Source of the DNA: a virus
Reading direction: 5' to 3' (one strand)
IMG/VR virus record: IMGVR_UViG_3300034115_000003
Coordinates: 1-23,952 of that record
Length of the DNA stretch: 23,952 nucleotides
The notes beneath the pieces are model-generated. The model saw nothing but the letters and a program-made list of their open reading frames with translations. It was not told where the DNA came from and ran no database searches. Below, piece after piece: positions 2,238 through 23,439 of the stretch. A program made the position numbers and the translations under genes. Numbering within the stretch: the first letter of the stretch is position 1; every line of letters starts with the position of its first letter.

Positions 2238-2776
2238 TGCTGAATTTCCAGCTACTTGTATTTGGTGATAAGATAGTAACAGCCAAATATAGAGCTATGG
2301 CTAATGCGACAGGTAATCTTATTCCTTCTTTTCACGAAGTAGAAGATTATCTGATGGATATTACTGGACGACAGTTCGATTCGCAAGGTCGTAGAGGCGG
2401 TGGTTCATGGAAACCGTTGTCACCCAAATGGGTAGCTCGTAAAGCCCGTATGGGAGGCGACACCCGTATCCTACATTTTGATAAAGCACTACGTAGGTCG
2501 GTTACTAAGCGAGGGGCTGGTGGACAGATTCTAGAATATACACCTACCTCTCTTACATTCGGTACTAGTATAGCATATGCAGCAAGACACCAGTTCGGAC
2601 ACGGAAAAACGCCTAGACGCAAATTTCTAGTCATTCTTCCACTAGACAGAAAAATGATAACTGAGATGATCCAGAGTCACATTATGACACCCTGGGTTAA
2701 AACCGGAGTACTAGCCTTTGGAGGCGGAAAAATGCTTAGAGGCCCAAGAGGTAGGTTCATGGGGGTGAGTAGATAA
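2237..2776 (+). CDS. tail completion / virion morphogenesis protein (Mu gpG, P2 gpS type)
   Basis: A 179-residue basic protein. The block with FDSQGRRGGGSWKPLSPKW, then RILHFDKALRRSV and SIAYAARHQFGHG with PRRKFLVI, is characteristic of the Phage_tail_S / virion morphogenesis family: the family needs a W-x-P-L core, an 'L..tG.L..S' segment and a 'YA..hQfG' segment. Proteins of this family act when tail and head are joined. The chosen ATG overlaps the previous stop (TAATG at 2235-2239); an internal ATG at 2298 would drop about 20 residues but lacks that coupling. The next gene follows with no gap. Confidence 0.8.
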   Translation: MLNFQLLVFGDKIVTAKYRAMANATGNLIPSFHEVEDYLMDITGRQFDSQGRRGGGSWKPLSPKWVARKARMGGDTRILHFDKALRRSVTKRGAGGQILEYTPTSLTFGTSIAYAARHQFGHGKTPRRKFLVILPLDRKMITEMIQSHIMTPWVKTGVLAFGGGKMLRGPRGRFMGVSR

Positions 2777-2950
2777 ATGGCAAGTAATGAGTACTACGCG
2801 CCTCTGAATGGTGGTATTGTCGATCTTGTTAGCGGTGCTAGTGTAGCTCCCGGCGAGACTGTCAAGCTATCCTCAGAAGCAGCTAAAGAAAATGCAGATG
2901 CGATTGAGCGCGGTGCGCTCCTTGAAATTAAGAAAGGAGGTGACAAGTAG
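2777..2950 (+). CDS. 57-residue protein before the sheath, unknown function
   Basis: This small gene fills the space between the tail completion gene and the sheath. It begins with ATG immediately after the preceding TAA (2774-2776) and ends in TAG at 2948-2950, whose G starts the sheath GTG. The product begins MASNEYYAPLNGG and has a compact pattern with PGETVKLSSEAAK and ERGALLEIKKGG. Its last codons (AAG AAA GGA GGT GAC) form the Shine-Dalgarno sequence of the sheath gene, so its translation should be tied to sheath production. Mu-like phages also carry a very short gene (DUF2635) just upstream of the sheath; this may be its counterpart, but I see no firm sequence proof. Confidence 0.75.
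   Translation: MASNEYYAPLNGGIVDLVSGASVAPGETVKLSSEAAKENADAIERGALLEIKKGGDK
2933..2943 (+). promoter_or_regulatory. strong ribosome binding site for the sheath gene, inside the preceding gene
   Basis: AAAGGAGGTGA lies seven bases before the GTG at 2950 and matches the full anti-Shine-Dalgarno complement. It decides the GTG start and is itself coding sequence for the final residues of the 57-residue gene. Confidence 0.8.
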
Positions 2951-4380
2951 TGCGACCAGGTGTTAACATTGTTATCAGTGAAAACACACCGATTCGTACT
3001 CCACCTACTGATACTGGTGTATGGTTTCTTAGTGGTCTAGCCGACAAAGGTCCAACAACCTCAGCTAGACTGATTACCAGTCTTAGCGAGTACGTTAAAT
3101 ATTTCGGTGATAGAGTATCTTACGGTATACTTTACGATGCTCTAGACGTGTTCTTCCGTGAAGGTGGTACAAGGGCTTACGTTACTCGCGTAGTCGGCCC
3201 TGCTAATGTTACAGCGTTCAAGCTATTGCTTGATGCTGGTGCTGCTAACACTTTGCGAGTCGAAGCTAACTCCCCTGGTGAATGGGGCAATGCTCTTAAC
3301 GTACAGGTTGTCGCTGGCGGTGCCGGCGGTTCCTTCGTACTGGTTATTTCACACGATGTACTAGGAGAGCTTGAAAGGTCAGGCGATCTAATTGACAAAG
3401 CTGCCGCATTTGAGTGGGCAGAAAATAGCAATTGGATCGTATTGATAGATCAGGCATCTTTGCTCGATCCTGCTGTTGTCGCTGTTCAGTCACTTGCTGG
3501 TGGTCTAGATGATCGTGCCAGCATTGTTGATGCACAGTGGACAACTAGCCTTACTAGGTTCTCACGTGATTTGGGACCAGGGCAAGTTAGTTTCCCAGGT
3601 AAGACTACAACTACTCTGCATGGTATTCTAATGACTCATGCAGCAGCTAACAACAGGGTAGCTATCCTAGACTTTGTGGATACTCCCACAAAAGCTACTT
3701 TCATCACTGAGGCAGAGCTTCTACGCGGAGCCAATGCTAAGTGGACAGGTGTATGGCAACACTGGCTATTGGTTCCCGGTATCACACCAGGTACTACCAG
3801 GACTGTTCCACCATCTGCTCTTATTGCAGCTAAGGCCGCATACGCAGATTCTATCGGTAGTCCTAATACTCCTGGTGCTGGTGATCTTGGCATTGCTAAC
3901 TACGTAACTGGTCTATCTCAGCCAACTTGGAATGATCTTGATTTGCAGGAATTGAATGGTCAGGGTGTTAACTCCATCATCATGAAGTATGGTGTTCCTA
4001 GGGTATTTGGGTGGCGTACTCTTGCTGATCCAGATACCGATAGCGAATGGAACAACATGGGTAACAGCAGGCTAATTATGCAAATCGCTGCTGAGGCAGA
4101 TGCTCTTGGTGAGACTTACCTGTTCGATGAAATTGATGGACAGGGTAGAGTGATCGCGTCTTACGGTGGCGCATTGACAGCCATGCTTATGCCGTATTGG
4201 AACATCGGTAGCCTTTATGGGCTTACGGCAGAAGAAGCGTTCCAGGTAGATGTTGGTCCTTCCGTGAATACACCTACTACAATCGCTGACAAGCAGCTAC
4301 GCGCACTTGTTATGGTTCGACCATCTCCGTTTGCTGAGATGATTACGATCGAGATTGTCAAACAACAGGTTAATGAGTAA
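2950..4380 (+). CDS. contractile tail sheath protein
   Basis: A 476-residue protein forming the contractile outer tail cylinder. The N-terminus (MRPGVNIVISENTPIRTPP followed by a TDTGVWFLSGLADKGP segment) and the next block (ITSLSEYVKYFG, LYDALDVFFREGGTRAYVTRVV) are the hallmark of phage tail sheath proteins. So is the C-terminal part around YWNIGSLYGLTAEEAFQVDVG, with KQLRALVMVRPSPFAEMITIEIV. Length matches the usual 380-500 range. It is followed at once by the tube gene, the standard order. The central part (about residues 110-200, IDKAAAFEWAENSNW region) looks like the variable surface domain. A GTG start is used, set by the strong upstream ribosome site. Confidence 0.93.
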   Translation: MRPGVNIVISENTPIRTPPTDTGVWFLSGLADKGPTTSARLITSLSEYVKYFGDRVSYGILYDALDVFFREGGTRAYVTRVVGPANVTAFKLLLDAGAANTLRVEANSPGEWGNALNVQVVAGGAGGSFVLVISHDVLGELERSGDLIDKAAAFEWAENSNWIVLIDQASLLDPAVVAVQSLAGGLDDRASIVDAQWTTSLTRFSRDLGPGQVSFPGKTTTTLHGILMTHAAANNRVAILDFVDTPTKATFITEAELLRGANAKWTGVWQHWLLVPGITPGTTRTVPPSALIAAKAAYADSIGSPNTPGAGDLGIANYVTGLSQPTWNDLDLQELNGQGVNSIIMKYGVPRVFGWRTLADPDTDSEWNNMGNSRLIMQIAAEADALGETYLFDEIDGQGRVIASYGGALTAMLMPYWNIGSLYGLTAEEAFQVDVGPSVNTPTTIADKQLRALVMVRPSPFAEMITIEIVKQQVNE

Positions 4381-7552: not shown

Positions 7553-8049
7553 TGGTCGGTAGAGTTACATTTAGATCTAAGACGAAGCCTGTATTGACTG
7601 TGGAATGTTGGCTAGGAGCAGAAAGAGCACAAGTCACAGGAGGTTATGGAGGATGGGAAATTGTAGAACGTCCTCGTAAAACGGGAGTTACTCAATGGAA
7701 CGGTCGTCAGCCCTACACTATGAGTGTTCCTATTTTGATTGATGGTTTCTCAGAAAGAGAAGAAGTTGAGAGTGATTGCTTCACTCTTGAGCAGATGGCT
7801 TTGCCTTGGGGCAAGGAACCTCCTGTTATCAAGATAATCAGCAATGCTGTACCTCACACAGACCTAGATTGGGTTGTGGCTAATATAGAGTGGGGAGAAG
7901 CAATTAGTGGTAAATTTAACGGGAAGAGGATCAGACAAGAAGCTACGGTAGTTTTTCTTAGATATAACGCCGCAGATAAACTACAGCTAACCGCGGCCGC
8001 ACATGCTAGAAATAAGAAAAAGGGTGATACCCTCTTTAGGATTAGATAA
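7552..8049 (+). CDS. tube-to-hub linking tail protein (XkdP / CIS-tube-like position)
   Basis: A 165-residue protein starting one base inside the tape measure stop. Visible blocks are a strand-rich N-terminus (GRVTFRSKTKPVLTVECW), a GGYGGWEIVERPRKTG segment, a PYTMSVPILIDGF strand and a late beta region (DWVVANIEWGEAISG, ATVVFLRY). The final residues are basic (ARNKKKGDTLFRIR). In contractile systems the gene between tape measure and hub encodes a protein joining tube and hub, often with a LysM end. No LysM repeat is visible here. The assignment is from position and overall pattern, and the family is uncertain. Confidence 0.55.
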   Translation: MVGRVTFRSKTKPVLTVECWLGAERAQVTGGYGGWEIVERPRKTGVTQWNGRQPYTMSVPILIDGFSEREEVESDCFTLEQMALPWGKEPPVIKIISNAVPHTDLDWVVANIEWGEAISGKFNGKRIRQEATVVFLRYNAADKLQLTAAAHARNKKKGDTLFRIR

Positions 8050-10073
8050 TGGCTAATCGACTAAAAAACAAAAGACAGAAGCTACAACTATCCCGGCTGG
8101 AAAAGGATGCCCAGCTTCTATCAAAAGATTTGGACCTAACTGATCTCGCCTTCATAACTAGGCGTCTGCCTAATATGAAGTTTAGTGAGGCTGTTACAGA
8201 TGGAGAAGTTATCAGGACTATTGAGGGTGCTTCTACAGTTACCATTGAAGTTACTGATCCTTACGGCCTCATCAAAAACTCTGGTAGATTGGCCCGTGAA
8301 GTAGATATCAAGATAGATGGATTGTGGTTCCGCTTAGTGGCGTTCAGAAAAACGGGCACTAAAACTAATCTGACGTTTGAGTCTAGAGAAGTAGCTATCC
8401 TACGGACTTATGACAACAAGCGTATTGCGGCTTGGGGTCAATTGACTAGAGCAAGGTTCGCTCAGATACTCGTCAACGAGGTCAAGCAATTCAAGATTCC
8501 TTTCGTATGTCCTGAATTGAAGAAAACTAAGTTTGAGAAGGATAAAGCAAAAGAAGATAAACTACGTGATAGGAATCCAGGCTTTGGTGATTGGCCTTCG
8601 GCTATTGCTATGGCTGCTTCTAAAGGCAAGCCTATCACTATTAAAGGTAGAGCGCCTGTTACTGCACAATTAGAGGTAATAGAGAAGGTTCTTGATGTAG
8701 GTCATAATCTGTCTGCTACTGGACGGTTGGGTGGAGTTACAAGAAAAATCCTAGTTTGTGCCATAATGACTATCATCCAAGAAGCCACAGCTTACAACAA
8801 ACCTTTTGGTCATGGCACTTCTGTGGGCGCCTTTCAGTTGATTGACATTCATGGCACAGTAGAATGGCGCATGAATTTGAATAACTCAGCTAATTGGTTT
8901 TACGAACGAGCCGTTAAATTCGCACAGGATCACCCAAACGCTCAGTACGCAGAAATATGTCAAGGTGCTCAACGTAGTGCATTTCCTGATGCTTATAGCC
9001 AGTGGAGAGTTGAAGCTGAACGACTAGTAACGGCCTACGGTATAGCTGGTGGTGCTAATTCTAGTAACAGTGATACTGCCGCCGCTAATAACATGGGAGA
9101 TTGGCAACAAGAAGCGGGAGTAGATGACTTCCAGTTTATGCGTGGTCGGCCTAAGACTCTTCCAGGTGGTAAGAAAGGCTTTGAAAAAGAGAATAGCTGG
9201 GATTGTCTGAATAGGCTTGCAGAAGAAGTACACTGGCGTTGTTTTGAAGTAAGCGGTAGAGTCTACTTTATCAGTGAGCCCTACTTATTCAGAAGTGCAC
9301 CAAGAATGCGTATCTCTGAGAGTACAGAAGGTGTAGATTGGGTAGACTTCGACTACGATATCAACAAGAAGAACGGACAAATCACAGTTACCTGTAACGT
9401 GGATAGATGGGCTGCTCCACCGGGAAGTATCCTTGAAATTTTTGATTCGGGTATAGCTAATGGTCGATGGTTGATAACCGACATTAGACGACCTATCCAT
9501 AGTATCAAGGCAACTATCACTCTAAAGAAACCACGACCTAAACTGCCAGAACCTAAGAAGGACGATCTTACAGGTATAGGTGATTACAGGAATACCAAAG
9601 AATACTCACCTACTCCTGGATACTCACCTGATCCACCAGGGCAGTATCCATCTGGTAATGCTCTACGTGATGCTGTATTGAACAGTCCTAACATCACGTT
9701 TAGCAGAACATCTCAGTCTAACGACATTAAGTTTGGTCTGGTCAAACCACAGGTCCTTAAGTTCATGCTGGCGTTCAGCGAGGCAGGCTTTCCTATAAAA
9801 GTCACTAGTATGCGCTCTGACCATTCTGCTAATACCAGCTCTGGTAATCCTTCCGCTCATGGTTTTGGCTTGGCTCTAGACATGGGTAACTACGGAAGCG
9901 ATAACCCAAGGACTCCTACAGCTATGAGATGGATTGCTGACTTTCAGCCACAACTAGGATTCTCTCAACTAATTGGACCCAATAATGAATTGGTGATTCC
10001 ACTAGGTCACTACGACAAGAAAACACTTGAGCAGCATGACGATCATATCCATGTGGGGTGGCATATTCCATGA
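8049..10073 (+). CDS. baseplate hub protein with lysozyme-like and M15 peptidase domains
   Basis: A 674-residue multidomain hub. Residues about 30-205 and 350-495 look like one hub fold (gpD/gp27/XkdQ type, with ASTVTIEVTDPYG and WDCLNRLAEEVHWRCFEV), interrupted by a lysozyme/transglycosylase-like domain at about 206-330. That domain has a candidate catalytic E245 (IIQEATAYN), the SVGAFQL turn and QRSAFPDAYSQWRVEAERL. A Pro-rich linker (495-535, YSPTPGYSPDPPGQYP) leads to a C-terminal peptidase domain. There SAHGFGLALD (602-611) fits the SxHxxGxAxD zinc motif of M15 enzymes, with H604 and D611, and DDHIHVGW (664-671) gives H666/H668. It would open the cell wall during tail penetration. Domain calls are from motifs. 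Confidence 0.85.
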   Translation: MANRLKNKRQKLQLSRLEKDAQLLSKDLDLTDLAFITRRLPNMKFSEAVTDGEVIRTIEGASTVTIEVTDPYGLIKNSGRLAREVDIKIDGLWFRLVAFRKTGTKTNLTFESREVAILRTYDNKRIAAWGQLTRARFAQILVNEVKQFKIPFVCPELKKTKFEKDKAKEDKLRDRNPGFGDWPSAIAMAASKGKPITIKGRAPVTAQLEVIEKVLDVGHNLSATGRLGGVTRKILVCAIMTIIQEATAYNKPFGHGTSVGAFQLIDIHGTVEWRMNLNNSANWFYERAVKFAQDHPNAQYAEICQGAQRSAFPDAYSQWRVEAERLVTAYGIAGGANSSNSDTAAANNMGDWQQEAGVDDFQFMRGRPKTLPGGKKGFEKENSWDCLNRLAEEVHWRCFEVSGRVYFISEPYLFRSAPRMRISESTEGVDWVDFDYDINKKNGQITVTCNVDRWAAPPGSILEIFDSGIANGRWLITDIRRPIHSIKATITLKKPRPKLPEPKKDDLTGIGDYRNTKEYSPTPGYSPDPPGQYPSGNALRDAVLNSPNITFSRTSQSNDIKFGLVKPQVLKFMLAFSEAGFPIKVTSMRSDHSANTSSGNPSAHGFGLALDMGNYGSDNPRTPTAMRWIADFQPQLGFSQLIGPNNELVIPLGHYDKKTLEQHDDHIHVGWHIP

Positions 10074-12061
10074 GTATGTTCGACGATCTTCCGGCTAGAG
10101 AAATACTCGACGGTAATTGGTCGGGTAAAATTGCTACTAATGTCAGTTCAGTAGATGATCCCGTTTACGTGACTATCAATTCTTTTGGTAAGACTCACAG
10201 GTTTGGTCCTTGTAGATGGGTAACACGCGGTACCTCTCTACCTAATCGTGGTGATGTATGTCTGGTAACATTCGACGAAAATCAACGTGCCTATGTTATT
10301 GCTTGGTGGGATGGTACTCTAGGCGGCGGTGGCGGTGGCGGCGAGGTTGGCCCTGGCGACATTGGTACCACAGAACTGGCAGACAATGCGGTAACTAAAC
10401 CTAAGATGGCTGACAATTCGGTTAGCGCAGCAGAGATTGAAAATGATACAGTTACACACAATGAGATAGCTGTTGCTAACAAGGATGGTGCGGCTGCCAC
10501 TCCTTCTCTACGTACTCTAGGTACTGGTTCTGCACAGGCCGCTGCTGGTAACGATGCTAGATTGAGTGATTCCCGTATTCCTACGGCACACGGTGATTCA
10601 CTACATGATGCGACTGTAGCTTCACTTTCTTCTGGCATCGTACCTAATGCTGAATTAGGATCAGGTACTCCAGATAGTACTAAATTCCTACGTGGTGATA
10701 GAATATGGGCTGTGCCTGCTGGTGGTGGCGACTTTCCAATAATTGATGTAAAAGCAGATTTTGGGGCAGTAGGAGATGGATCAACAGATGACTACGACGC
10801 GTGGCAGGACGCTTTTGATGCTATTCCTGCCGCTGGTGGAGCTATTTTGGCACCACCTGGACCGTATCTAATTAACTCTGGAACTGGATTTACTATCAAG
10901 CCCTATACAACAATTATAGGTACTAGTTATCCAAGATATTATTCCGCGGTTGAGCCTGTATCAAATTGCTATTTAAAGATCGGAGCCGGCTTTACAGGAT
11001 CTAGCTTGTGGGCGCCGCCTGGTACGATTCGTAACGTCTCGTGGCAGAACATAGGACTCTTTGGTATGGGTTTGGGTACTCCTGGCTCTGGCGGAAAACA
11101 CTGTATTCGATTTCCCGATCTTGCTGATGTAACGGGTGAAATGGGAATTTCTTTTGAGAATGTTCATATCGCAGGTTGGACAGGATCAGGAGTGTGTGGT
11201 CGTTTGCATGTTGGGTCGTTCGTAAATTGTCATATCTCAAACTGTGGTTACTGGTGTATCGAGACAATAACTGGCACGAACAATCGTTGGAATGATGTTA
11301 AGTTCCTAGGCGGATTTCTGTACTATGGACGTTCTGGCTGTTTAGCTTTCGATGGAGGTACTACTACTGCTAATATTGGTTTTATAGAAACACGCTTTGA
11401 ACGTGGAGGCAATCAACCAGGAAGCCCACTTTCTCCATACAACACAGATGCTCCCGGTGTGCTACTAGGAAATGCAGAATGGATTCGTTTTATTGGTACG
11501 AACACGGATGGAAATACGGGTCATGGTTATCATCTACGTCGTACGGCTGCCGATTCAAAAAGAGTACGTGGTATTGAATTTACAAGTACCCATCAAGGAA
11601 GGGATGGTGGGGGCGACCAATCTACATTGCCTACCAGAGCATCTATTGCTTGTCTAGGTTTTAATGGATCAAATAGAGTCGAGCAAATTCGAGTGAACGG
11701 CGGAAAGAACGTGGCAGGTAAAGCAGATGATGGTGGGGGAGGTATCGTTTCTCCAAAACATGGAGTCATGCTAGATTACGTTTATGACGCAGTTTTCAAT
11801 GAGTACGATGCTGAGGAAGCAACATTCGGGAGTACAATTGCAAACCGTTGGAATATTGGGGCGGGTGGAATTTCTCAACTATGGCGCACTAGGGTCAATG
11901 ACCAACGTGCTGGAATCTTCTCATTCCCATCACTGGGTAGTGGTACCCCACCTATAGTTGCTGACGGTTCTGGTGAGTTCACACAACTTTGGTACGACGA
12001 GAGTACTAATAAAATTATGGTTCGTGAAGGTGGCAGCAACTTTGGAGTGGTTGTAGCATAA
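10070..12061 (+). CDS. spike-like OB-fold protein fused to a pectate-lyase-type beta-helix (candidate depolymerase)
   Basis: A 663-residue protein. The ATG at 10070 overlaps the hub stop (ATGA) and is preceded by GGGGTGG; a GTG at 10058 is less likely. Residues about 15-82 (DPVYVTINSFGKTHRFGP, GDVCLVTFDENQRAYVIAWW) look like the OB domain of baseplate spikes such as P2 gpV and T4 gp5. A seven-Gly linker (85-91) follows, then a fibre collar (92-215) with ELADNAVTKPKMADNSVSA. From about 224 a pectate-lyase-superfamily segment (DVKADFGAVGDGSTDDYDAW, then GGAILAPPGPYLI) begins a long beta-helix. The gene lies exactly where gpV sits in P2 order, before gpW, gpJ and gpI. It probably binds or cuts a surface polysaccharide; catalytic residues are not assigned. 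Confidence 0.8.
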   Translation: MSMFDDLPAREILDGNWSGKIATNVSSVDDPVYVTINSFGKTHRFGPCRWVTRGTSLPNRGDVCLVTFDENQRAYVIAWWDGTLGGGGGGGEVGPGDIGTTELADNAVTKPKMADNSVSAAEIENDTVTHNEIAVANKDGAAATPSLRTLGTGSAQAAAGNDARLSDSRIPTAHGDSLHDATVASLSSGIVPNAELGSGTPDSTKFLRGDRIWAVPAGGGDFPIIDVKADFGAVGDGSTDDYDAWQDAFDAIPAAGGAILAPPGPYLINSGTGFTIKPYTTIIGTSYPRYYSAVEPVSNCYLKIGAGFTGSSLWAPPGTIRNVSWQNIGLFGMGLGTPGSGGKHCIRFPDLADVTGEMGISFENVHIAGWTGSGVCGRLHVGSFVNCHISNCGYWCIETITGTNNRWNDVKFLGGFLYYGRSGCLAFDGGTTTANIGFIETRFERGGNQPGSPLSPYNTDAPGVLLGNAEWIRFIGTNTDGNTGHGYHLRRTAADSKRVRGIEFTSTHQGRDGGGDQSTLPTRASIACLGFNGSNRVEQIRVNGGKNVAGKADDGGGGIVSPKHGVMLDYVYDAVFNEYDAEEATFGSTIANRWNIGAGGISQLWRTRVNDQRAGIFSFPSLGSGTPPIVADGSGEFTQLWYDESTNKIMVREGGSNFGVVVA

Positions 12062-12378
12062 TGGCTGATATACCACACTTCGCTATACCATTCAGGATTG
12101 ACGGTGCTAGAGGCGCAATCGTAAACGAACAAGATTCCGATGAGGAAATCACAGATTGCGCAGAAACCGTACTTAGGTATGAAATAGGTCAAAGACCTGA
12201 AAGACCAGAATTTGGTATACCTGACCAGACTTTCGCTGAACCCGAACCAGACGTTTCACTAATTCAAGAAGCTCTAGTTAGGTGGGAACCTAGGACAAAT
12301 CTCATAGTAGGAGAGTCTGTGGTTGATACAATAGACGAGCTTATCACTAAAATAAGAGTGGAGGCAGCGCATGAGTGA
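12061..12378 (+). CDS. baseplate wedge protein, gp25 / gpW family
   Basis: A 105-residue protein starting one base inside the previous stop. IPFRIDGARGAIVNEQDSDE, then a helix-rich part ITDCAETVLRYEIGQRPERP with EFGIPDQTF, matches the gp25-like fold of the sheath-initiating wedge component. The typical EPR-like region appears here as the RWEPRTNLI segment near residue 75. Its length is usual for the family. It nucleates the sheath at the baseplate. The next gene starts eight bases before its stop, and GGAGG about 6-8 bases ahead of that ATG lies within this gene. Confidence 0.88.
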   Translation: MADIPHFAIPFRIDGARGAIVNEQDSDEEITDCAETVLRYEIGQRPERPEFGIPDQTFAEPEPDVSLIQEALVRWEPRTNLIVGESVVDTIDELITKIRVEAAHE

Positions 12379-14044
12379 ACAGTTCATTGACGTTCCAATT
12401 ACGACCGATCCAGAAGTATTGGCTCAGTTGGCGTTTGACTACCTACAGGCTAATATACCTGATTGGGTACCTAACGACGCAAACCTGGAAACCATCCTAA
12501 TTGAAGCTTCTGCTCTTATGGCAGCCGAAGCCAGGGATGTAGCAAGTACCGTTCCTACCGAGATTTTTAGGTATTTTGGTGAATTGGTTGGTATCCTTCC
12601 ACAAGAAGCAACACGAGCCACAAGCACAACCGAATGGACTATGATTGACAACCAAGGATACACTATTCCTGCTGGTACTCAGATAGGAATTAGGACAGCA
12701 GGAGACGTACTGATTCCATTTGAAGTTATGGAAGATGTAGTGATCCTTCCAGGCGCAACCATCGCCAGCAACGTTGAAATTCTGGCAACAGAAACGGGAA
12801 TTGAGGGTTCTGGCCTACCTGATACCAGCGTCGTAGAACTCATTGATACTCTAGATTTCGTTACCACTATTACTCTAGAGACTCTTACTACTGGCGGGGT
12901 TGATGCTGAGGATGATGACGTTTACCTAAATCGCCTAGTTGCGAGATTGCAAATGCTTGCTCCACGTCCTATTCTAGCTCGTGACTTTGCGGTGTTTGCT
13001 CAAGATATAGCAGGAGTAGATAGGGCCATAGCTGTTGATGGATATAACCCATTCCACAACAAACTCAATGCTAATCAGTCCAGCCTGGAAACAGACGCCT
13101 CTGGTTGGGAAGCTGAAACCAACTGTGCTGTATCCCGTCAGACTACTGTAGCAGAAGATGGTATAGCATCTCTTAGGCTACGTTCTACAGCCGGCGGTAA
13201 TATGTCGGGTATGACTACTAGAACAGGAGTCAATCCGGTCACGGGTATTCCTGGAGAGTTTTGGAGTGCTATAGCAGACTTTCGTTCCGCCGTTTCAGCG
13301 AGGACTTGCAAGGTGTTCATACATTGGATCAATGGTGCTGATGCCATCATTTCTTCTATAAGTTCTGCTGGCGCCGCTGATACTACTTCTGGTTGGACTC
13401 AACAAACCATCTCAGGTATTGCCCCCGCTGGTACAGTTAAGGTGGTCGTAGCTGTGCAGGTTCTTGCTACAGGCGGCGCGAGCGAGGATCACTTCGTTGA
13501 CAAGATTCAACTACGTAAAGGTCCAGGTACAGATTGGGTTATCGGTGGAACAATTGAAACCGGAAACGAACGTATGGTAGCTGTAGCTGCCGTTGACATT
13601 ACAGGAGAAGCTGTTAGTGCAGGAATAAAAACTGATGTTGACGCATATCTACAATCAATGCGTGAGGTCAACTTCATAGTGAACATGATGGACCCAACTT
13701 ACACTACCATTGACGTTACGTTTACTGCTGTAGCTCTTGATGGATGGCTACCAGCCGATGTTGAAGCGGGTGCTGAGCAAGCTATGATTGATTACTTGTC
13801 ACCTATGAATTGGGGTCTTCCAGATGTTGTAAGTTTTGGAGATAACCCATCACCTATGTGGTTAAACAAACCTATTCTCAGATATCTAGAACTAGCACAG
13901 GTGTTGAATAATGTAGGTGGTCTTGACTACATTACCGCTCTGACCTTTAGACGTGGTGCAGACGCATTCGCACAGACCGACCTTGCTCTAGCTGGTGCTA
14001 TTCCTTTGCCACGAGCAGGCGTAATCACAGGAACGGTTACATAG
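12371..14044 (+). CDS. baseplate wedge protein J (gp6/gpJ family) with an inserted binding-like module
   Basis: A 557-residue protein. Residues 1-225 and about 398-557 make up the expected baseplate J body: DWVPNDANLETILIEASALM, the TIPAGTQIGIRT strand pair, GGVDAEDDDVYLNRLVARLQ, and later ERMVAVAAVDITGEAVSAGI with VNFIVNMMDPTYTTIDVTFT. Between them, at about 227-398, lies a beta-sandwich-like module. It opens LNANQSSLETDASGWEAE, has GIASLRLRSTAG and closes with DHFVDKIQLRKGPG, like the CBM-type modules of phage tails. J proteins join wedge components in the baseplate. The insertion makes the protein longer than the family core, and the module probably points outward. Binding specificity is unknown. 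Confidence 0.85.
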   Translation: MSEQFIDVPITTDPEVLAQLAFDYLQANIPDWVPNDANLETILIEASALMAAEARDVASTVPTEIFRYFGELVGILPQEATRATSTTEWTMIDNQGYTIPAGTQIGIRTAGDVLIPFEVMEDVVILPGATIASNVEILATETGIEGSGLPDTSVVELIDTLDFVTTITLETLTTGGVDAEDDDVYLNRLVARLQMLAPRPILARDFAVFAQDIAGVDRAIAVDGYNPFHNKLNANQSSLETDASGWEAETNCAVSRQTTVAEDGIASLRLRSTAGGNMSGMTTRTGVNPVTGIPGEFWSAIADFRSAVSARTCKVFIHWINGADAIISSISSAGAADTTSGWTQQTISGIAPAGTVKVVVAVQVLATGGASEDHFVDKIQLRKGPGTDWVIGGTIETGNERMVAVAAVDITGEAVSAGIKTDVDAYLQSMREVNFIVNMMDPTYTTIDVTFTAVALDGWLPADVEAGAEQAMIDYLSPMNWGLPDVVSFGDNPSPMWLNKPILRYLELAQVLNNVGGLDYITALTFRRGADAFAQTDLALAGAIPLPRAGVITGTVT

Positions 14045-15195
14045 TGCCTCAGCCCTCTGTTAGTCAATCAGCCGAGAACTTGTACGAAATCCTAAAGCCG
14101 TTGGCTTACGCTGATGAGAGGTATGGCTGGCCTCTATTACATCTTTGTGAGGCTAGTGTAGGATCGTTACAGCAAGTCAATAATTATGTAGGATCACAGG
14201 ATGATGAGTTCCCAAACTGGTCAGCACTAGTTGACATTGATAGAGCGCCCGATGAGACTCTGCCCTGGTTGGGTCAGTTGGTTGGAGTTGTAGTTCCTAG
14301 GCAAGAAATTCTCGAAACCGATTCAGACTATGCAGTAAGAATTCGGGAGTACATTCGTGGAACCCCCGGATTCAAGAGAGGCTCTCCTAGTGCTATGGTT
14401 GTTGCTGTTCAGCAGTATCTAACAGGAACCAAGCAAGTTATCTTCCGAGAACGTAACGGTGGAGCATACAAGCTAACCGTTAAGACTCGCCGTGACGAGA
14501 CACCACCAGAAGATTGGGAATCAACAAACATTCTAACCAACGGGGGTCTTGAGACAAATACAACTGGATGGTCAGTAGTTAACGGTACCATAGCGCGTAT
14601 AGTATCACCAGGAAAGTTTGGTGATGCTTATGGTGCCGTAACATGCACAGCACCTACAGTATTTACAGCAATTCACGATTCACCGATATCTGGTGCTACA
14701 GCAGGACGAGAGTTCTCAGGATCAGTTTGGGCAAGAGGGGTAGGAGCACAAATCGGTGAGATGTGTGGCCTTGGTATTGAAGAACGTGGTGGTGCTTCGG
14801 GAGCGGTTTCTTTTGGTTTTGATTTTATTACATTAACTGAGGATTGGCAAAGAGTTACGGCTAGTGGTCCTATAGCAGCAAACGACAGAACTACTGCCCG
14901 TTTGTTTATAGATGGAAACAACGCAAGCCCCGGAGAAATATTCCACATTGATGGAGCGCAAATGGAAGAAAAGCCCGATGCAACACCTTATATAGAGACG
15001 AACGGTGCTCCTGCAAGTAGAGGTAGCGGATTTGGTCCAGTAGGAGATGCTCTAAGGACACAGAAGCCTGGTGGTATCATTCTCACGTATGAAGTTATAG
15101 ATGGACAGGATTGGCAGAACGTGATTGATACACAAGCAAGTTGGACTACGACTATAGCAGCGTATCCAACGATTGACGCCTTGGAAGAAGGATAG
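14044..15195 (+). CDS. tail protein I-like baseplate protein with an inserted carbohydrate-binding-like module
   Basis: A 383-residue protein with GTG start overlapping the previous TAG (TAGTG). Residues 1-155 fit the P2 gpI / tail protein I family: ENLYEILKPLAYADERYGWP, then DETLPWLGQLVGV, YAVRIREYIRGTPGFKRGSP and MVVAVQQYLTGTKQV. About 335-383 return to that core (RTQKPGGIILTYEVIDGQDW). Residues about 158-325 form an inserted module. It begins NILTNGGLETNTTGWSVVNG and ends with EIFHIDGAQMEEKPDATPYI, a signature of CBM_4_9-like beta-sandwiches seen in many phage tail proteins. gpI completes the wedge and anchors fibres. The fibre genes follow at once. Confidence 0.82.
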   Translation: MPQPSVSQSAENLYEILKPLAYADERYGWPLLHLCEASVGSLQQVNNYVGSQDDEFPNWSALVDIDRAPDETLPWLGQLVGVVVPRQEILETDSDYAVRIREYIRGTPGFKRGSPSAMVVAVQQYLTGTKQVIFRERNGGAYKLTVKTRRDETPPEDWESTNILTNGGLETNTTGWSVVNGTIARIVSPGKFGDAYGAVTCTAPTVFTAIHDSPISGATAGREFSGSVWARGVGAQIGEMCGLGIEERGGASGAVSFGFDFITLTEDWQRVTASGPIAANDRTTARLFIDGNNASPGEIFHIDGAQMEEKPDATPYIETNGAPASRGSGFGPVGDALRTQKPGGIILTYEVIDGQDWQNVIDTQASWTTTIAAYPTIDALEEG

Positions 15196-15990
15196 ATGCC
15201 TGATATTTCAGATCGTTGGAGTATTCCATTTCCTACCGTAAACGATCCCGCCAACATGGACGACCAAATCAAAACGATGGCGGAATCTATAGACGATCAC
15301 GCTAAAGACCTTACTCAAGGAACCTTTGCTAATCGTCCAGCGGCAGGCACGTATGGTCGTTACTACTACGATACGACTCATCTAGTTCTTTGGAGAGATA
15401 ATGGTACAGTTTGGAAGCCTTCAAGTGCTACGGAACTCACAACGGGCACGTTACCCAGCAACCCCGATGAAGGACAAACTGTAGACGTGTTGGTAGATAG
15501 TACTCTTGGAATTGTATGGAGATTTCGTTATAGACCAAGCTCTTCAGAGTCGAGTCCGTATAAGTGGGAATCTGTTGGTAATGTTCCAAGCTTGTCACAC
15601 GTAATTGAAACTAGTCTAAACACCACATCTACCTTCTATCAGACTTACAATCCCGAAATTATCCTTCCATTCAGAGGTATATACGATGTGGAGTTTGGAG
15701 CTCATATGTACACTAACGTAGCACCCGGTGGTGTAGCAGCTATGTCCGTTTGGGAAGGAACGTCGGTTCCCATACCTGCTGACTCACCTGCGCTGGATGA
15801 GCTTGCTGCCTATTGTGATGTTTATCCATATGCCAATCAAGCTTCTGCTCATGGATCTAGATTGCTTAGAAGAGGATTTGGTTCTACACCCCCAATTACG
15901 GTAAGAAATGTTTATAGAACATTCGGAGGACTTAATACAACTTTCCACTCGCGTTGGATGAAGATTACTCCTGTGGTGGTGTCTGCATAA
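15196..15990 (+). CDS. tail fibre / receptor-binding protein, paralogue 1
   Basis: A 264-residue protein beginning immediately after the gpI stop. An N-terminal domain (residues 1-75) has WSIPFPTVNDPANMDDQIKT, a short helix with IDDHAKDLTQG, RPAAGTYGRYYYD and LWRDNGTVWKP. A middle strand pair (VWRFRYRP, YKWESVG) and a C-terminal beta-sandwich (GIYDVEFGAHMYTN, HSRWMKITPVVV) follow. The two next genes share this whole plan, so the gene is one of three tandem paralogues. Position after gpI suggests a short fibre or tip protein that contacts the host surface. No catalytic motif is seen. Confidence 0.75.
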   Translation: MPDISDRWSIPFPTVNDPANMDDQIKTMAESIDDHAKDLTQGTFANRPAAGTYGRYYYDTTHLVLWRDNGTVWKPSSATELTTGTLPSNPDEGQTVDVLVDSTLGIVWRFRYRPSSSESSPYKWESVGNVPSLSHVIETSLNTTSTFYQTYNPEIILPFRGIYDVEFGAHMYTNVAPGGVAAMSVWEGTSVPIPADSPALDELAAYCDVYPYANQASAHGSRLLRRGFGSTPPITVRNVYRTFGGLNTTFHSRWMKITPVVVSA

Positions 15991-16817
15991 TGCCATCTAC
16001 TCCACGCAGCGGCATACCATATCCAGCTGTAGGAGATCCTCCGAATTTCCCTGTCCAGATGGATGCAATAGCTACAGCAATTGATAACATGGCCAAGGAT
16101 GACCAAGGCTTGTTAGCAAATAAGCCAATAAGTAGTCCAAGCGTACCAGGAAAGATGGGTCGTTACTACTACGCAACTGATTCTGGAGTTCTATACAGGG
16201 ATCATGGAACTGGTTGGTCTGCTGTATACGCATCGGAAATTGGTACGACAATGCCAGGGTCTGCTCCTGTTGATTACACTCAGTGGACTATGCTGATGCC
16301 GACAGAGGGTGCCGGCTTCGGACACCACGCCGAAGAATCTTTTATAAATGTAGAGTGGGCATTTCGTTACGTCGCTTCTGAACCTACATACAAATGGGTT
16401 TTTGTGGGTGGACCACCTGTCATTTACACCGTGAAGAACTCGGACATTTTGAGCACCACTAGTACAACATATGCACAACTTGGCGATGTGATAGATCCAC
16501 AACTACAGATCGACCTACCTCGCGCCGGTGTTTATGAAATTGAGTTTGGCGCAAATATGTGGAATAGCACAAATGACACTGAAGTATTGGCTAGCCTATC
16601 TTTGCTAGGTGCGGCCGCTAGCGATAACGATGCGATACGTTCCAACGTAGTAGGAGTTGCGGGATTCCCCAACACTATTGCCCATCAACATTGTCGTAGG
16701 ATTCTTCAGAAAACTTTGGCAACGCCAGGAATTGTTGCTTTTAGATATAGAGTTCCTGGGGGCACAGGCAACTGGCGAGGACAACATCTATCAATTAGAC
16801 CAAAGGCGATTATTTAA
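15990..16817 (+). CDS. tail fibre / receptor-binding protein, paralogue 2
   Basis: A 275-residue protein; the ATG at 15990 overlaps the previous TAA by one base and is preferred over an in-frame codon at 15954 that would overlap deeply. It shares with its neighbours SGIPYPAVGDPPNFPVQMDA, the KDDQGLLANKP segment, MGRYYYATDSGVLYRDHGT, an FRYVASEPTYKWVFVGG strand pair and a C-terminal domain with GVYEIEFGANMWN ending RGQHLSIRPKAII. It is slightly longer in the linker (about residues 85-115, GSAPVDYTQWTMLMPTEGAG). It lies between paralogues 1 and 3 and likely forms a related trimeric fibre. Confidence 0.75.
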   Translation: MPSTPRSGIPYPAVGDPPNFPVQMDAIATAIDNMAKDDQGLLANKPISSPSVPGKMGRYYYATDSGVLYRDHGTGWSAVYASEIGTTMPGSAPVDYTQWTMLMPTEGAGFGHHAEESFINVEWAFRYVASEPTYKWVFVGGPPVIYTVKNSDILSTTSTTYAQLGDVIDPQLQIDLPRAGVYEIEFGANMWNSTNDTEVLASLSLLGAAASDNDAIRSNVVGVAGFPNTIAHQHCRRILQKTLATPGIVAFRYRVPGGTGNWRGQHLSIRPKAII

Positions 16818-17579
16818 ATGCCGAGCACACCACATCACGCAATACCTTATCCGCTAGGAAGTGAAATTCCTAGTGGTCCTGCCCACCTGCAAACCCTAGC
16901 TCTCTCTATAGACGATCATGTTAAGGATCTAACAGGGCTGTTGAGCGCTAGGCCCGCCGCAGGATCGGCAGGACGTTTGTACCACGCTACAGACAACGGT
17001 TTGACATACCGTGACAATGGCACCACATGGCAAGCTCTACAAAACATCCCATTTATTACAAGCTGGCCGCCACCGGCTGCTCTAGCAGCAGATGGAGTAG
17101 TGATTGATTATTTGGCCGCTACAAGCTCCATCTATAGATTGCGTTATCGTGCTGCTTCTTCTTCTCCCTATAAATGGGAAGTCATAAGCGCACCAGCAAT
17201 TCACGCCGAAACTTTAGCGGAACACCTTGAAATTAATAACACATTTAATGGTACTGCTCCTAGCGTCACAGCTATACGTGAAGGTGATTATTGGATTGAA
17301 CATGGGTGTAATGTTTACCAAGACGCCTCATCTACACACATGACCATGTATATGAGTTACGCCGTAGGAGCAATAGCAGCACAGAATGCAGATGCAATCA
17401 CCAGCTTCCAGGCACAAAATGCGGATCTGACACACTTTTCTCACATGCGTGGTAAGCGCAAGAATGCTATACCAGCGGGTGCTGCGATAGTGGCCAAATA
17501 CAAAGTCAGCTTCAATGCTGGCCCGACTGCACATTTCAGGAATAGATGGATTCGGATTCGGCCCATTAGAATAATCTAA
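16818..17579 (+). CDS. tail fibre / receptor-binding protein, paralogue 3
   Basis: A 253-residue protein whose ATG directly follows the TAA of paralogue 2. It keeps the shared plan: HHAIPYPLGSEIPSGPAHLQ, IDDHVKDLTGLLSARPAAG, GRLYHATDNGLTYRDNGTTW, YRLRYRAASSSPYKWEVIS, and a C-terminal domain ending FRNRWIRIRPIRII. The C-terminal part is the most divergent of the three (GDYWIEHGCNVYQDASSTHM), as expected for a receptor-contacting region. A perfect-looking hairpin sits inside its first codons. The endolysin follows after a short spacer with a ribosome site. Confidence 0.75.
   Translation: MPSTPHHAIPYPLGSEIPSGPAHLQTLALSIDDHVKDLTGLLSARPAAGSAGRLYHATDNGLTYRDNGTTWQALQNIPFITSWPPPAALAADGVVIDYLAATSSIYRLRYRAASSSPYKWEVISAPAIHAETLAEHLEINNTFNGTAPSVTAIREGDYWIEHGCNVYQDASSTHMTMYMSYAVGAIAAQNADAITSFQAQNADLTHFSHMRGKRKNAIPAGAAIVAKYKVSFNAGPTAHFRNRWIRIRPIRII
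16851..16876 (+). other. strong hairpin inside fibre paralogue 3
   Basis: CCGCTAGGAA and TTCCTAGTGG pair over 10 positions (one G-T wobble) around a loop of six bases (GTGAAA). It lies about 33 bases after the start codon of paralogue 3 and has no U-run, so it is not a terminator. It could slow translation or be chance. Confidence 0.4.
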
Positions 17580-18703: not shown

Positions 18704-19186
18704 ATGAATGAAGAAGAGGCAACGGAAGGAGAAGCTGGTAAGCCAGGAGAGCCACCTATAGGACAACAAGGTGGTAAAGGTGGTGAAGGTGGTCGTGGTG
18801 GCCGTGGTATACCAGAAGGTGCAGGCGGTGTTGGTGGTGCTGGCGGTAAAGGCGCTACAGGAGAACAAGGTCCAGTAGGTCCTAGAGGTAAAGGTGGAAA
18901 GTACGAAGCTATCCATCCTTATAGATGGAGAGCACTAACAATTTGGATCGTCTTGTTTACTCTGGTTGGCATAATTGGCATAAGAGAAAATAGAGAGCGA
19001 ATTAATGACATTCAGACAAGCCGTGTTGAATCTTGTAGAGCCAATTACGATGGTATGCGTACGATATTTCTAACGTTCCTTCCGCCTCATGAATCTCGTA
19101 GTCCGGAACAAATAGAAAGTCTAGCTAAATTCGATATAATGATTGCAGAACTGAAAAGTAAGTGTGATGTTCAAACCGATCAATAA
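18704..19186 (+). CDS. membrane protein with collagen-like N-terminus
   Basis: A 160-residue protein with a strong ribosome site (GAGGAGG, 18690-18696). Residues about 11-66 are Gly-X-Y-rich and collagen-like (GKPGEPPIGQQGGKGGEGG, later GATGEQGPVGPRGKGGK). One transmembrane helix lies at about 77-93 (ALTIWIVLFTLVGIIGI). A C-terminal domain of about 65 residues holds two Cys (C111, C154) and FLPPHESRSPEQIESLAKFD. The C-terminal pattern resembles small membrane proteins in lysis cassettes of actinobacterial phages (memory, not alignment). Function is unknown: a holin partner or another lysis accessory is plausible. Collagen repeats are usual in phage fibres, and their presence on a membrane protein is odd. 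Confidence 0.7.
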   Translation: MNEEEATEGEAGKPGEPPIGQQGGKGGEGGRGGRGIPEGAGGVGGAGGKGATGEQGPVGPRGKGGKYEAIHPYRWRALTIWIVLFTLVGIIGIRENRERINDIQTSRVESCRANYDGMRTIFLTFLPPHESRSPEQIESLAKFDIMIAELKSKCDVQTDQ

Positions 19187-22092: not shown

Positions 22093-23439
22093 ATGCCACG
22101 TTATCCACTAGAACGTTGGCCTAGCTGGGCACAACCCAAACGAGGTTCGTGGGTTCGTTCAGCCATACCTTCTGAGGCTGCCACACCTATCAATGATAGT
22201 GATGCAAGTGCAGCAGGCGTTGACCTAGGAGTACTAACTGCTGTTCTAGTTAGTGCCGATGCTTCGGCTGCCGGTGTTGATACCGGCGTACTTCTTGCCA
22301 AACCTATATCCGCCGATGTAAACGGTACGGTCACTGAGAACCAGCTAGTCACTGTACCTATCGCAAGTTCTGACGTTAACGGCGCAACCACAGAGAATAC
22401 GGTTCTAGTTGCTAGACCTATTACTGCCGATACAGGCGTAGGAGTCGATACAGCCACACCCGCGTTTGCTACTACGCAAACACAAGCTGGTACAGGTGTC
22501 GATGCAGCTACACTTCTAGCTAAGCCGATTACTTCCGACGCTAACGGTACCGTCTCTGAGGGTTCTTCAGTAGTTGAGAGAGAATTCAAGTTTGATAGCG
22601 ATGAGAACTTCTCCTACGGCGAGGGACTACTGTTCCTCATCTCTCTCGCACAGATTCCTAGCAATGACAGCAACGGTGTAACCACCGAGGTTAGCACACT
22701 AGTTGCAAGACCCATCACAGCAGACGTTAACGCGACCTTTGTTGACAACGGTACTCTACTTGCTAATCCCATCACTAGTGATGTTAACGGTACTGTTACT
22801 GAGAACCAAACAGCAGCGGTGCCTGTTGTTAGTAGCGATACTAACGGGGTAACTACAGAGAACTCTACGCTAGTTGCTACTCTCTCAAGTACCGACGTAA
22901 ACGGTGTAACCACAGAGGTAAATACACTTACAGCGCAAATTCCGGCCAGTGATACTGGACCTCAAGTTCCCGCGTTCTTCGGTCATGTTATATTTGCTAG
23001 ACCCATCACCAGCGATGTTAATGGTGCCACCACTGAGAACTCTACCATCTCGGTACCGATCGTAAGTGCGGATACTAACGGCGCCACCACACAGAACACA
23101 ACTCTGCTGGCTAAGCCCATATCTACCGACACATCTGTAGGTGTCGATGCTGCCACAGTAACTAGGGCATTTGTTGTTAACAGTGATGCTGCAAGTTTCC
23201 TAGACCTCAACAACCTTAATGCAGTAATTACCTCTAGCGAAACTGGTACAGGAATTGATAATGGGATTGGTAGCAGCGGTGTAAGTAGAATCAGCCACGA
23301 CTTCGGATTCGGTTACGATTCTCAGGAAAGACTACCAGTGATGTTTACTAACGAGGCCGTAGGTACCATGACACTTCGACCAAGAGCAAAGGGAAAAATA
23401 GTAGTCCTCAAAAAGGAGGGAGAGTTGATTAAACGGTGA
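22093..23439 (+). CDS. repeat-rich structural protein
   Basis: A 448-residue protein. A basic aromatic N-terminus (RYPLERWPSWAQPKRGSW) precedes about 20 degenerate repeats of 18-20 residues from residue 34 to about 416. Two kinds alternate: units with SDVNGTVTEN (for example about 72-89, 227-244, 305-322) and units with DTGVGVD (for example 110-129). Most end with LVARP, LLAKP or LVTVP. A basic tail ends the protein (RPRAKGKIVVLKKEGELIKR). Repeats with a conserved Asp-Val-Asn-Gly turn suggest a beta-solenoid or beta-roll rod, perhaps metal-binding (inference). A fibre shaft or decoration is plausible. It ends in TGA overlapping the next start. No family name is assigned. Confidence 0.65.
   Translation: MPRYPLERWPSWAQPKRGSWVRSAIPSEAATPINDSDASAAGVDLGVLTAVLVSADASAAGVDTGVLLAKPISADVNGTVTENQLVTVPIASSDVNGATTENTVLVARPITADTGVGVDTATPAFATTQTQAGTGVDAATLLAKPITSDANGTVSEGSSVVEREFKFDSDENFSYGEGLLFLISLAQIPSNDSNGVTTEVSTLVARPITADVNATFVDNGTLLANPITSDVNGTVTENQTAAVPVVSSDTNGVTTENSTLVATLSSTDVNGVTTEVNTLTAQIPASDTGPQVPAFFGHVIFARPITSDVNGATTENSTISVPIVSADTNGATTQNTTLLAKPISTDTSVGVDAATVTRAFVVNSDAASFLDLNNLNAVITSSETGTGIDNGIGSSGVSRISHDFGFGYDSQERLPVMFTNEAVGTMTLRPRAKGKIVVLKKEGELIKR
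22192..23340 (+). repeat. tandem degenerate coding repeats (18-20 codons)
   Basis: The DNA encodes about 20 related units with the core motifs GATGTTAACGGT, GATACTAACGG and close variants. These recur at 54-60 base steps, interrupted by less similar units around 22585-22660 and 22940-22990. They are described with the gene that carries them. Confidence 0.8.

Follow-up and report, generated by a model that had tools for sequence, protein, structure and literature searches.

The window, by which the whole 23,952-base stretch of IMG/VR virus DNA that was analysed is meant, is a fragment of an uncultured phage and encodes a contractile tail comprising sheath, tape measure, hub, spike, a gp25/gpW-like protein, gpJ and gpI, followed by fibre-like genes. 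The gp25/gpW-like baseplate wedge gene (12061–12378; phrog_5026, E = 2.1e-7; PF04965, E = 1.8e-4, below the cut-off) is the upstream neighbour that fixes the order of the wedge operon. Downstream of it lie two real and adjacent ORFs on the same plus strand: gpJ (12371–14044; 557 aa), a baseplate wedge protein of the T4 gp6/Tri1 type assigned from PF04865, phrog_6, an AlphaFold model and the phi812 chain 9euf_C, and gpI (14044–15195; 383 aa), a second wedge protein of the Tri2/TmpF type assigned from its position after gpJ and from core profile matches. The closest isolates were Arthrobacter and Gordonia phages (25–32% identity), and a scan of genome contigs found no close prophage relative, returning only two remote Bacteroidota matches.

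Several other genes of the window have distinct features. The hub protein (8049–10073) has an endolysin-like middle (residues 195–333; phrog_10030, E = 3.4e-14), and near its C-terminus carries an SxHxxGxAxD ... HxH pattern resembling a peptidoglycan peptidase. The N-terminal part of the spike-like gene (10058–12061) resembles positions 2552–3646 of a related locus, L001, while its C-terminal part is pectate-lyase-like (PF12708, E = 5.8e-7) and seemingly missing from the L001 protein, making a depolymerase on the central spike possible. Beyond gpI, three tandem fibre-like ORFs (15196–17579; 264, 287, and 253 aa) have a common N-terminal region and divergent C-terminal halves, a collagen-like glycine-rich segment followed by a hydrophobic stretch occurs at 18704–19186 (a similar ORF is present in L001 at 7933–8232), and an ORF at 22093–23439 contains many 'ITSDVNGTVTEN'-like repeats and matched no family.

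The gpJ protein scored well above the gathering cut-off of PF04865 (Baseplate_J; 67.5 bits against 21.1) and was modelled by AlphaFold with a mean pLDDT of 91.7 from a 53-row alignment. A preliminary description of this DNA, made from the letters alone, had placed an insert at residues 227–398 of gpJ with a return to the family core, and this was borne out: the insert spans about residues 228–398 (13052–13564), with the N-terminal core (residues 1–227; 12371–13051) and C-terminal core (residues 399–557; 13565–14041) delimited by alignment with relatives in which the site is empty. In the gpJ of locus L010 (IMG/VR, 54% identity) 'DGYNPADSTYN' is joined directly to 'NERMVAVA', and in the window 170 additional residues separate 'DGYNP' from 'NERMVAVA'. 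The match to Arthrobacter phage gpJ proteins (~375 aa) is broken by the insert into two flanking segments, closer metagenomic relatives have 377–405 aa, and most relatives lack the insert. Further, the modelled core aligns to solved gpJ/gp6-type chains across the insert (phi812 9euf_C, Z = 20.3, 341 aligned, residues 9–557; 8kea_b, Z = 20.1). The strands of the insert (246–383) fall between core strands 218–223 and 402–408 in the model and, as read from this strand order, the insert bridges two neighbouring core strands, a hairpin.

Structurally, the gpJ insert is predicted to be a CBM-type jelly roll, forming an independent beta-sandwich in the model. Over a model range of 226–388 it matched the CBM22 structure 1dyo (Z = 16.2, rmsd 3.0, 151 residues aligned), and CBM families 22, 16, 61, and 4 as a group at Z = 14.6–16.2 and rmsd 2.5–3.4. 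It also matched the Douge central fibre and C-terminal tailspike domains of phages that bind sugars. HpiC1-type cyclases share the same list of structural matches, such that CBM-like folds also exist without a sugar ligand. At the profile level, the insert matched phrog_16363 (E = 3.1e-18) and was a sub-threshold relative of NF048003, the GTA head-spike-fibre domain (27.4 bits, E = 4.1e-6, under the cut-off of 36). Positions 171–312 of the phrog_16363 profile, annotated as 'unknown function', correspond to this CBM-like module, so that the annotation could be improved.

The gpI core had no Pfam family match, though its profile matched solved gpI-type proteins (9gtp_E, E = 7.8e-4; phi812 TmpF, E = 0.002; pyocin Tri2, E = 0.019) and Foldseek related it to 9eui_D (E = 8.9e-6). 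This core profile spans residues 8–164 of the window protein and picks up again at residue 334, giving an insert of about residues 156–333 (14509–15042) between an N-terminal core (residues 1–155; 14044–14508; 37–41% identity to the gpI of L001 and L011) and a C-terminal core (residues 334–383; 15043–15192), close to the 158–325 with return to core proposed from the letters alone. The closest gpI relative, that of L001, is an empty protein of 209 aa, though the L001 gpJ carries the gpJ insert; it runs straight through 'TRTAQTPSTTKTLADIIAAKPAALGLVY' where the window reads 'TRRDETPPEDW...insert...ALRTQKPGGIILTYEV'. With L010 empty at gpJ and L001 empty at gpI, the insert regions are not part of a core conserved in all relatives. 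The gpI insert passed the cut-off of 36 for NF048003 (65.8 bits, E = 6.8e-18). Its structural model was poor (pLDDT 24–40 in the first part) because only three alignment rows cover the insert, and its fold assignment therefore rests on sequence; the partial structural matches (Z = 8–9) come from a low-confidence model. Of the independent beta-sandwiches anticipated for the two inserts, that of gpJ is well supported by its model, and that of gpI is a candidate fold.

Modules of the same superfamily as the gpI insert were also found at the site used in the window in L107, L151, L174, L137, L010, and L009/L015. Other gpI proteins carry them elsewhere: L010, L015, and L166 at earlier sites, L043 before a core strand, L048–L051 at the N-terminus, and Gordonia phage GMA6 at the C-terminus. 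Arthrobacter phage KBurrousTX likewise has additional module-like domains on its gpI. Close to the N-terminus, Arthrobacter phage gpI (L003, 6057–7166; L037, L041, L053, L059) contains a further ~145 conserved residues that the module profile did not match, and L057 differs in sequence there.

Sequence comparisons support the assignment of both inserts to one CBM_4_9/CBM22-like superfamily, as had been suggested for CBM_4_9. A direct BLASTP comparison of the two aligned the LETD/N-x-x-GW motif only (E = 0.24), while a module profile built without gpI members matched the gpI insert among 2,015 sequences with an E-value of 1.9e-17, a somewhat optimistic value as the profile members were collected by an iteration that also saw gpI modules (HHalign probability, 98.3%). 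A profile of four gpJ inserts alone, without iteration, matched the gpI insert at E = 0.0029, and none of 2,000 shuffled control sequences were listed in either module-profile search (E up to 10). The joint family matched PDB chains of CBM4-2 (xylanase modules) and CBM22 (E down to 1.9e-9), and PF02018 (CBM_4_9) reached E ≤ 0.1 for 13 of its 35 members, with a lowest E-value of 5.5e-9; neither window insert reached the gathering score of CBM_4_9, and Pfam gave no match for them. The similar phrases that begin and end the two inserts ('ET..GW' and 'VDKIQL/IDGAQM'), pointed out in the preliminary description, do belong to related modules, yet they coincide with nearly invariant E and D columns and their neighbours across all 35 modules and are hallmarks of the family as opposed to marks of a recent copy. 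These columns may have a structural calcium role, by analogy with CBM families. In base composition (GC and GC3) the insert in gpJ is near its core, and GC3 is lower in gpI (0.26 versus 0.36–0.41), values not decisive for recent transfer.

A second scan of viral contigs yielded 80 gpJ loci, for a total of 114 distinct gpJ ORFs, 103 of them complete. Among the complete proteins, the hairpin was empty in 89, held the CBM-type module in 10 (all 548–562 aa), and held other modules, unrelated to the CBM module, in four (~70 aa in L009; ~100 aa in L011, L026, and L028), so that the site accepts more than the CBM type. Truncated proteins outside the 103 added two further CBM cases (L064 and L112) and a near-copy of L009 (L015). 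A core tree of 47 gpJ proteins, calculated with the insert columns excluded and evaluated over well-supported branches, forces at least six changes of the CBM label and at least three of the 100-aa label; parsimony does not distinguish gains from losses among these changes. Filled and empty sisters occur at 64–69% identity (L110/L121, L106/L125, and L109/L162), with support of 100/100 for grouping L110 with L121, L106 with L125, and L109 with L162 and L156, and the sister pairs differ by a single clean block with conserved flanks. The window gpJ itself groups with L009/L015 (96/83; 47-row tree), which carry the 70-aa module instead; in an earlier, smaller tree, a grouping of the window with L064 to the exclusion of L009/L015 was compatible with the data (p-AU = 0.457). 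On a 30-row core tree, single clades of the CBM-bearing gpJ (p-AU = 0.0004) and of all filled gpJ (p-AU = 3e-6) were both rejected. Filling of the two proteins varies independently, with both filled in the window and L107, gpJ alone in eight, and gpI alone in ten. As judged from these sequences, the gpJ hairpin is a turnover site, whose content has changed many times by filling, emptying, or replacement with another module. Outside the hairpin, the gpJ of L029 (4989–6386) has an 80-aa insert of another type after the position of window residue 525, which resembles tail fibre segments (phrog_9370).

The inserts are probably accessory, putative glycan-binding modules on the baseplate wedge. gpJ and gpI make up the wedge of a contractile-tail baseplate; each would display, on a loop at the surface of its conserved core, a beta-sandwich of CBM fold that folds autonomously, and the (gpJ)2-gpI stoichiometry carried over from phage A-1(L) would place up to 12 + 6 additional modules round the baseplate of each virion. 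The modules may bind host surface polysaccharide with low affinity and high avidity, and the phage could thereby hold on to or cross the capsule or exopolysaccharide ahead of main fibre engagement. Glycan binding is put forward by analogy, because analogues were tested in other phages (PMC11406892, PMC10688798, PMC13033339) and capsule binding by the RcGTA head spikes is cited in PMC13420450. Since the ends of the fold join a hairpin, wedge assembly could tolerate the gain or loss of a module, and the patchy distribution would follow from recombination between filled and empty alleles via their conserved flanks. A broader possibility, to which we give somewhat less than even weight, is that contractile wedges in general tolerate payloads structurally at the gpJ hairpin. 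Phages would then swap filled alleles, empty alleles, and unrelated modules that bind ligands by recombination via the conserved flanks, tuning host adsorption while leaving the fibres untouched.

Instead of binding glycans, the inserts might be structural adaptors that attach tail fibres or stiffen the wedge where it faces the hub or sheath, the CBM fold serving just as a sturdy beta-sandwich. The insertion domain of A-1(L) gp31, at another site, has one copy in the hub cleft and the other holding a long tail fibre (PMC10966104); the ligand-binding W69 of CBM4-2 aligns to a non-aromatic column in the module profile and in the window gpJ, in loops that align loosely; and the 100-aa module of the gpJ hairpin is similar both to the domain that ends major tail proteins at the C-terminus and to part of a tail-sheath family. 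We nonetheless regard an adaptor role as unlikely. The insert appears dispensable for assembly because close sister phages lack it with the rest of gpJ unchanged, it is replaced by unrelated modules, a substitution that specific docking would not easily allow, and the states of gpJ and gpI vary separately. A neutral decoration, with modules coming and going by illegitimate recombination to no advantage, would suit a patchy distribution in which three module types share one site and the majority of relatives are empty, but it is less probable still, given that, among strongly diverged sequences, the reading frame, the narrow length range of the CBM-bearing gpJ, and the hallmark E and D columns have all been preserved, unlike under neutral decay. 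Local duplication, with the module copied between gpJ and gpI in this lineage, is very improbable despite the adjacency of the genes and their like start and end phrases, as the two inserts share 18% identity, their grouping as sisters was rejected in both the window (p-AU = 0.0014) and L107 (p-AU = 0.0027), and gpJ modules group with gpJ modules from other phages.

The putative binding modules appear to follow their sites. The gpJ-site modules cluster together and a single origin was not rejected (p-AU = 0.16), nor was it for gpI-site modules (p-AU = 0.33). Because modules group by site while the core tree is patchy, one or a few fillings of each site, with filled alleles later lost or exchanged, are favoured over hopping of one domain between genes, as far as these phylogenies indicate. 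The preliminary suggestion of repeated insertion by one mobile domain type stands in that the sites are reused, though each site has its own module lineage.

Work on contractile phages usually looks to the fibres for host recognition, whereas here the wedge, a core assembly part, bears exchangeable modules of a sugar-binding fold at fixed sites. If the modules bind, host attachment would have a second layer, one that evolves fast and is masked by the 'unknown function' annotation of phrog_16363. The pairs of filled and empty sisters make the binding question testable, and the hairpin offers a natural insertion point for studies of wedge proteins. A literature search found no description of a CBM in a gpJ core protein, nor of one hairpin site used repeatedly by different types of module, while BFVD includes gpJ-like proteins of uncultured phages, one of them named 'CenC-like', such that databases already contain the combination.

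CBM insertion in baseplate proteins is already known, including in a wedge protein of a contractile phage, Vp4 Gp119 (Herelleviridae; PMC11406892). Gp119 has CBM folds that are missing from its homologue Deep-Blue Gp177, and it decorates B. cereus cells while the CBM-less homologue does not (PMC11406892). It is, however, another wedge protein (A511 gp105-like BW3; 831 aa), and the gpJ-like wedge protein of Vp4, Gp118, is without a CBM, whereas the window inserts occur in the gpJ hairpin and separately in gpI. The gpJ-type wedge protein of cyanophage A-1(L), gp31 (PMC10966104), likewise has an additional domain, though at residues 81–180 and with a fibre/hub docking role. For the RcGTA head-spike-fibre domain, the gpI insert is above the family cut-off and the gpJ insert sub-threshold; RcGTA spikes sit on the head, where they bind capsule according to work cited in PMC13420450, while the window module is in a wedge protein. 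The fold of the gpJ insert is shared with CBM families 22, 16, 61, and 4 and the Douge central fibre gp20 (Z = 13.9–16.2), albeit at 10–17% identity and with W69 of CBM4-2 falling on a non-aromatic column in loosely aligned loops, and the CBM-fold domains of Douge bind mycobacterial glycans (PMC13033339). The evolved Dit proteins of siphophages (PMC7291167, PMC10688798) have the same layout, with a CBM set into one loop of a core baseplate protein that is conserved and has empty classical homologues, and their inserts help adsorption (PMC10688798). The N- and C-terminal parts of gpJ similarly align to empty gpJ homologues with a CBM-type insert in between, with the difference that the evolved Dit core is a galectin-type Dit of a non-contractile tail, and the cores of gpJ and gpI in the window are of the T4 gp6/gp7 wedge type of a contractile tail.
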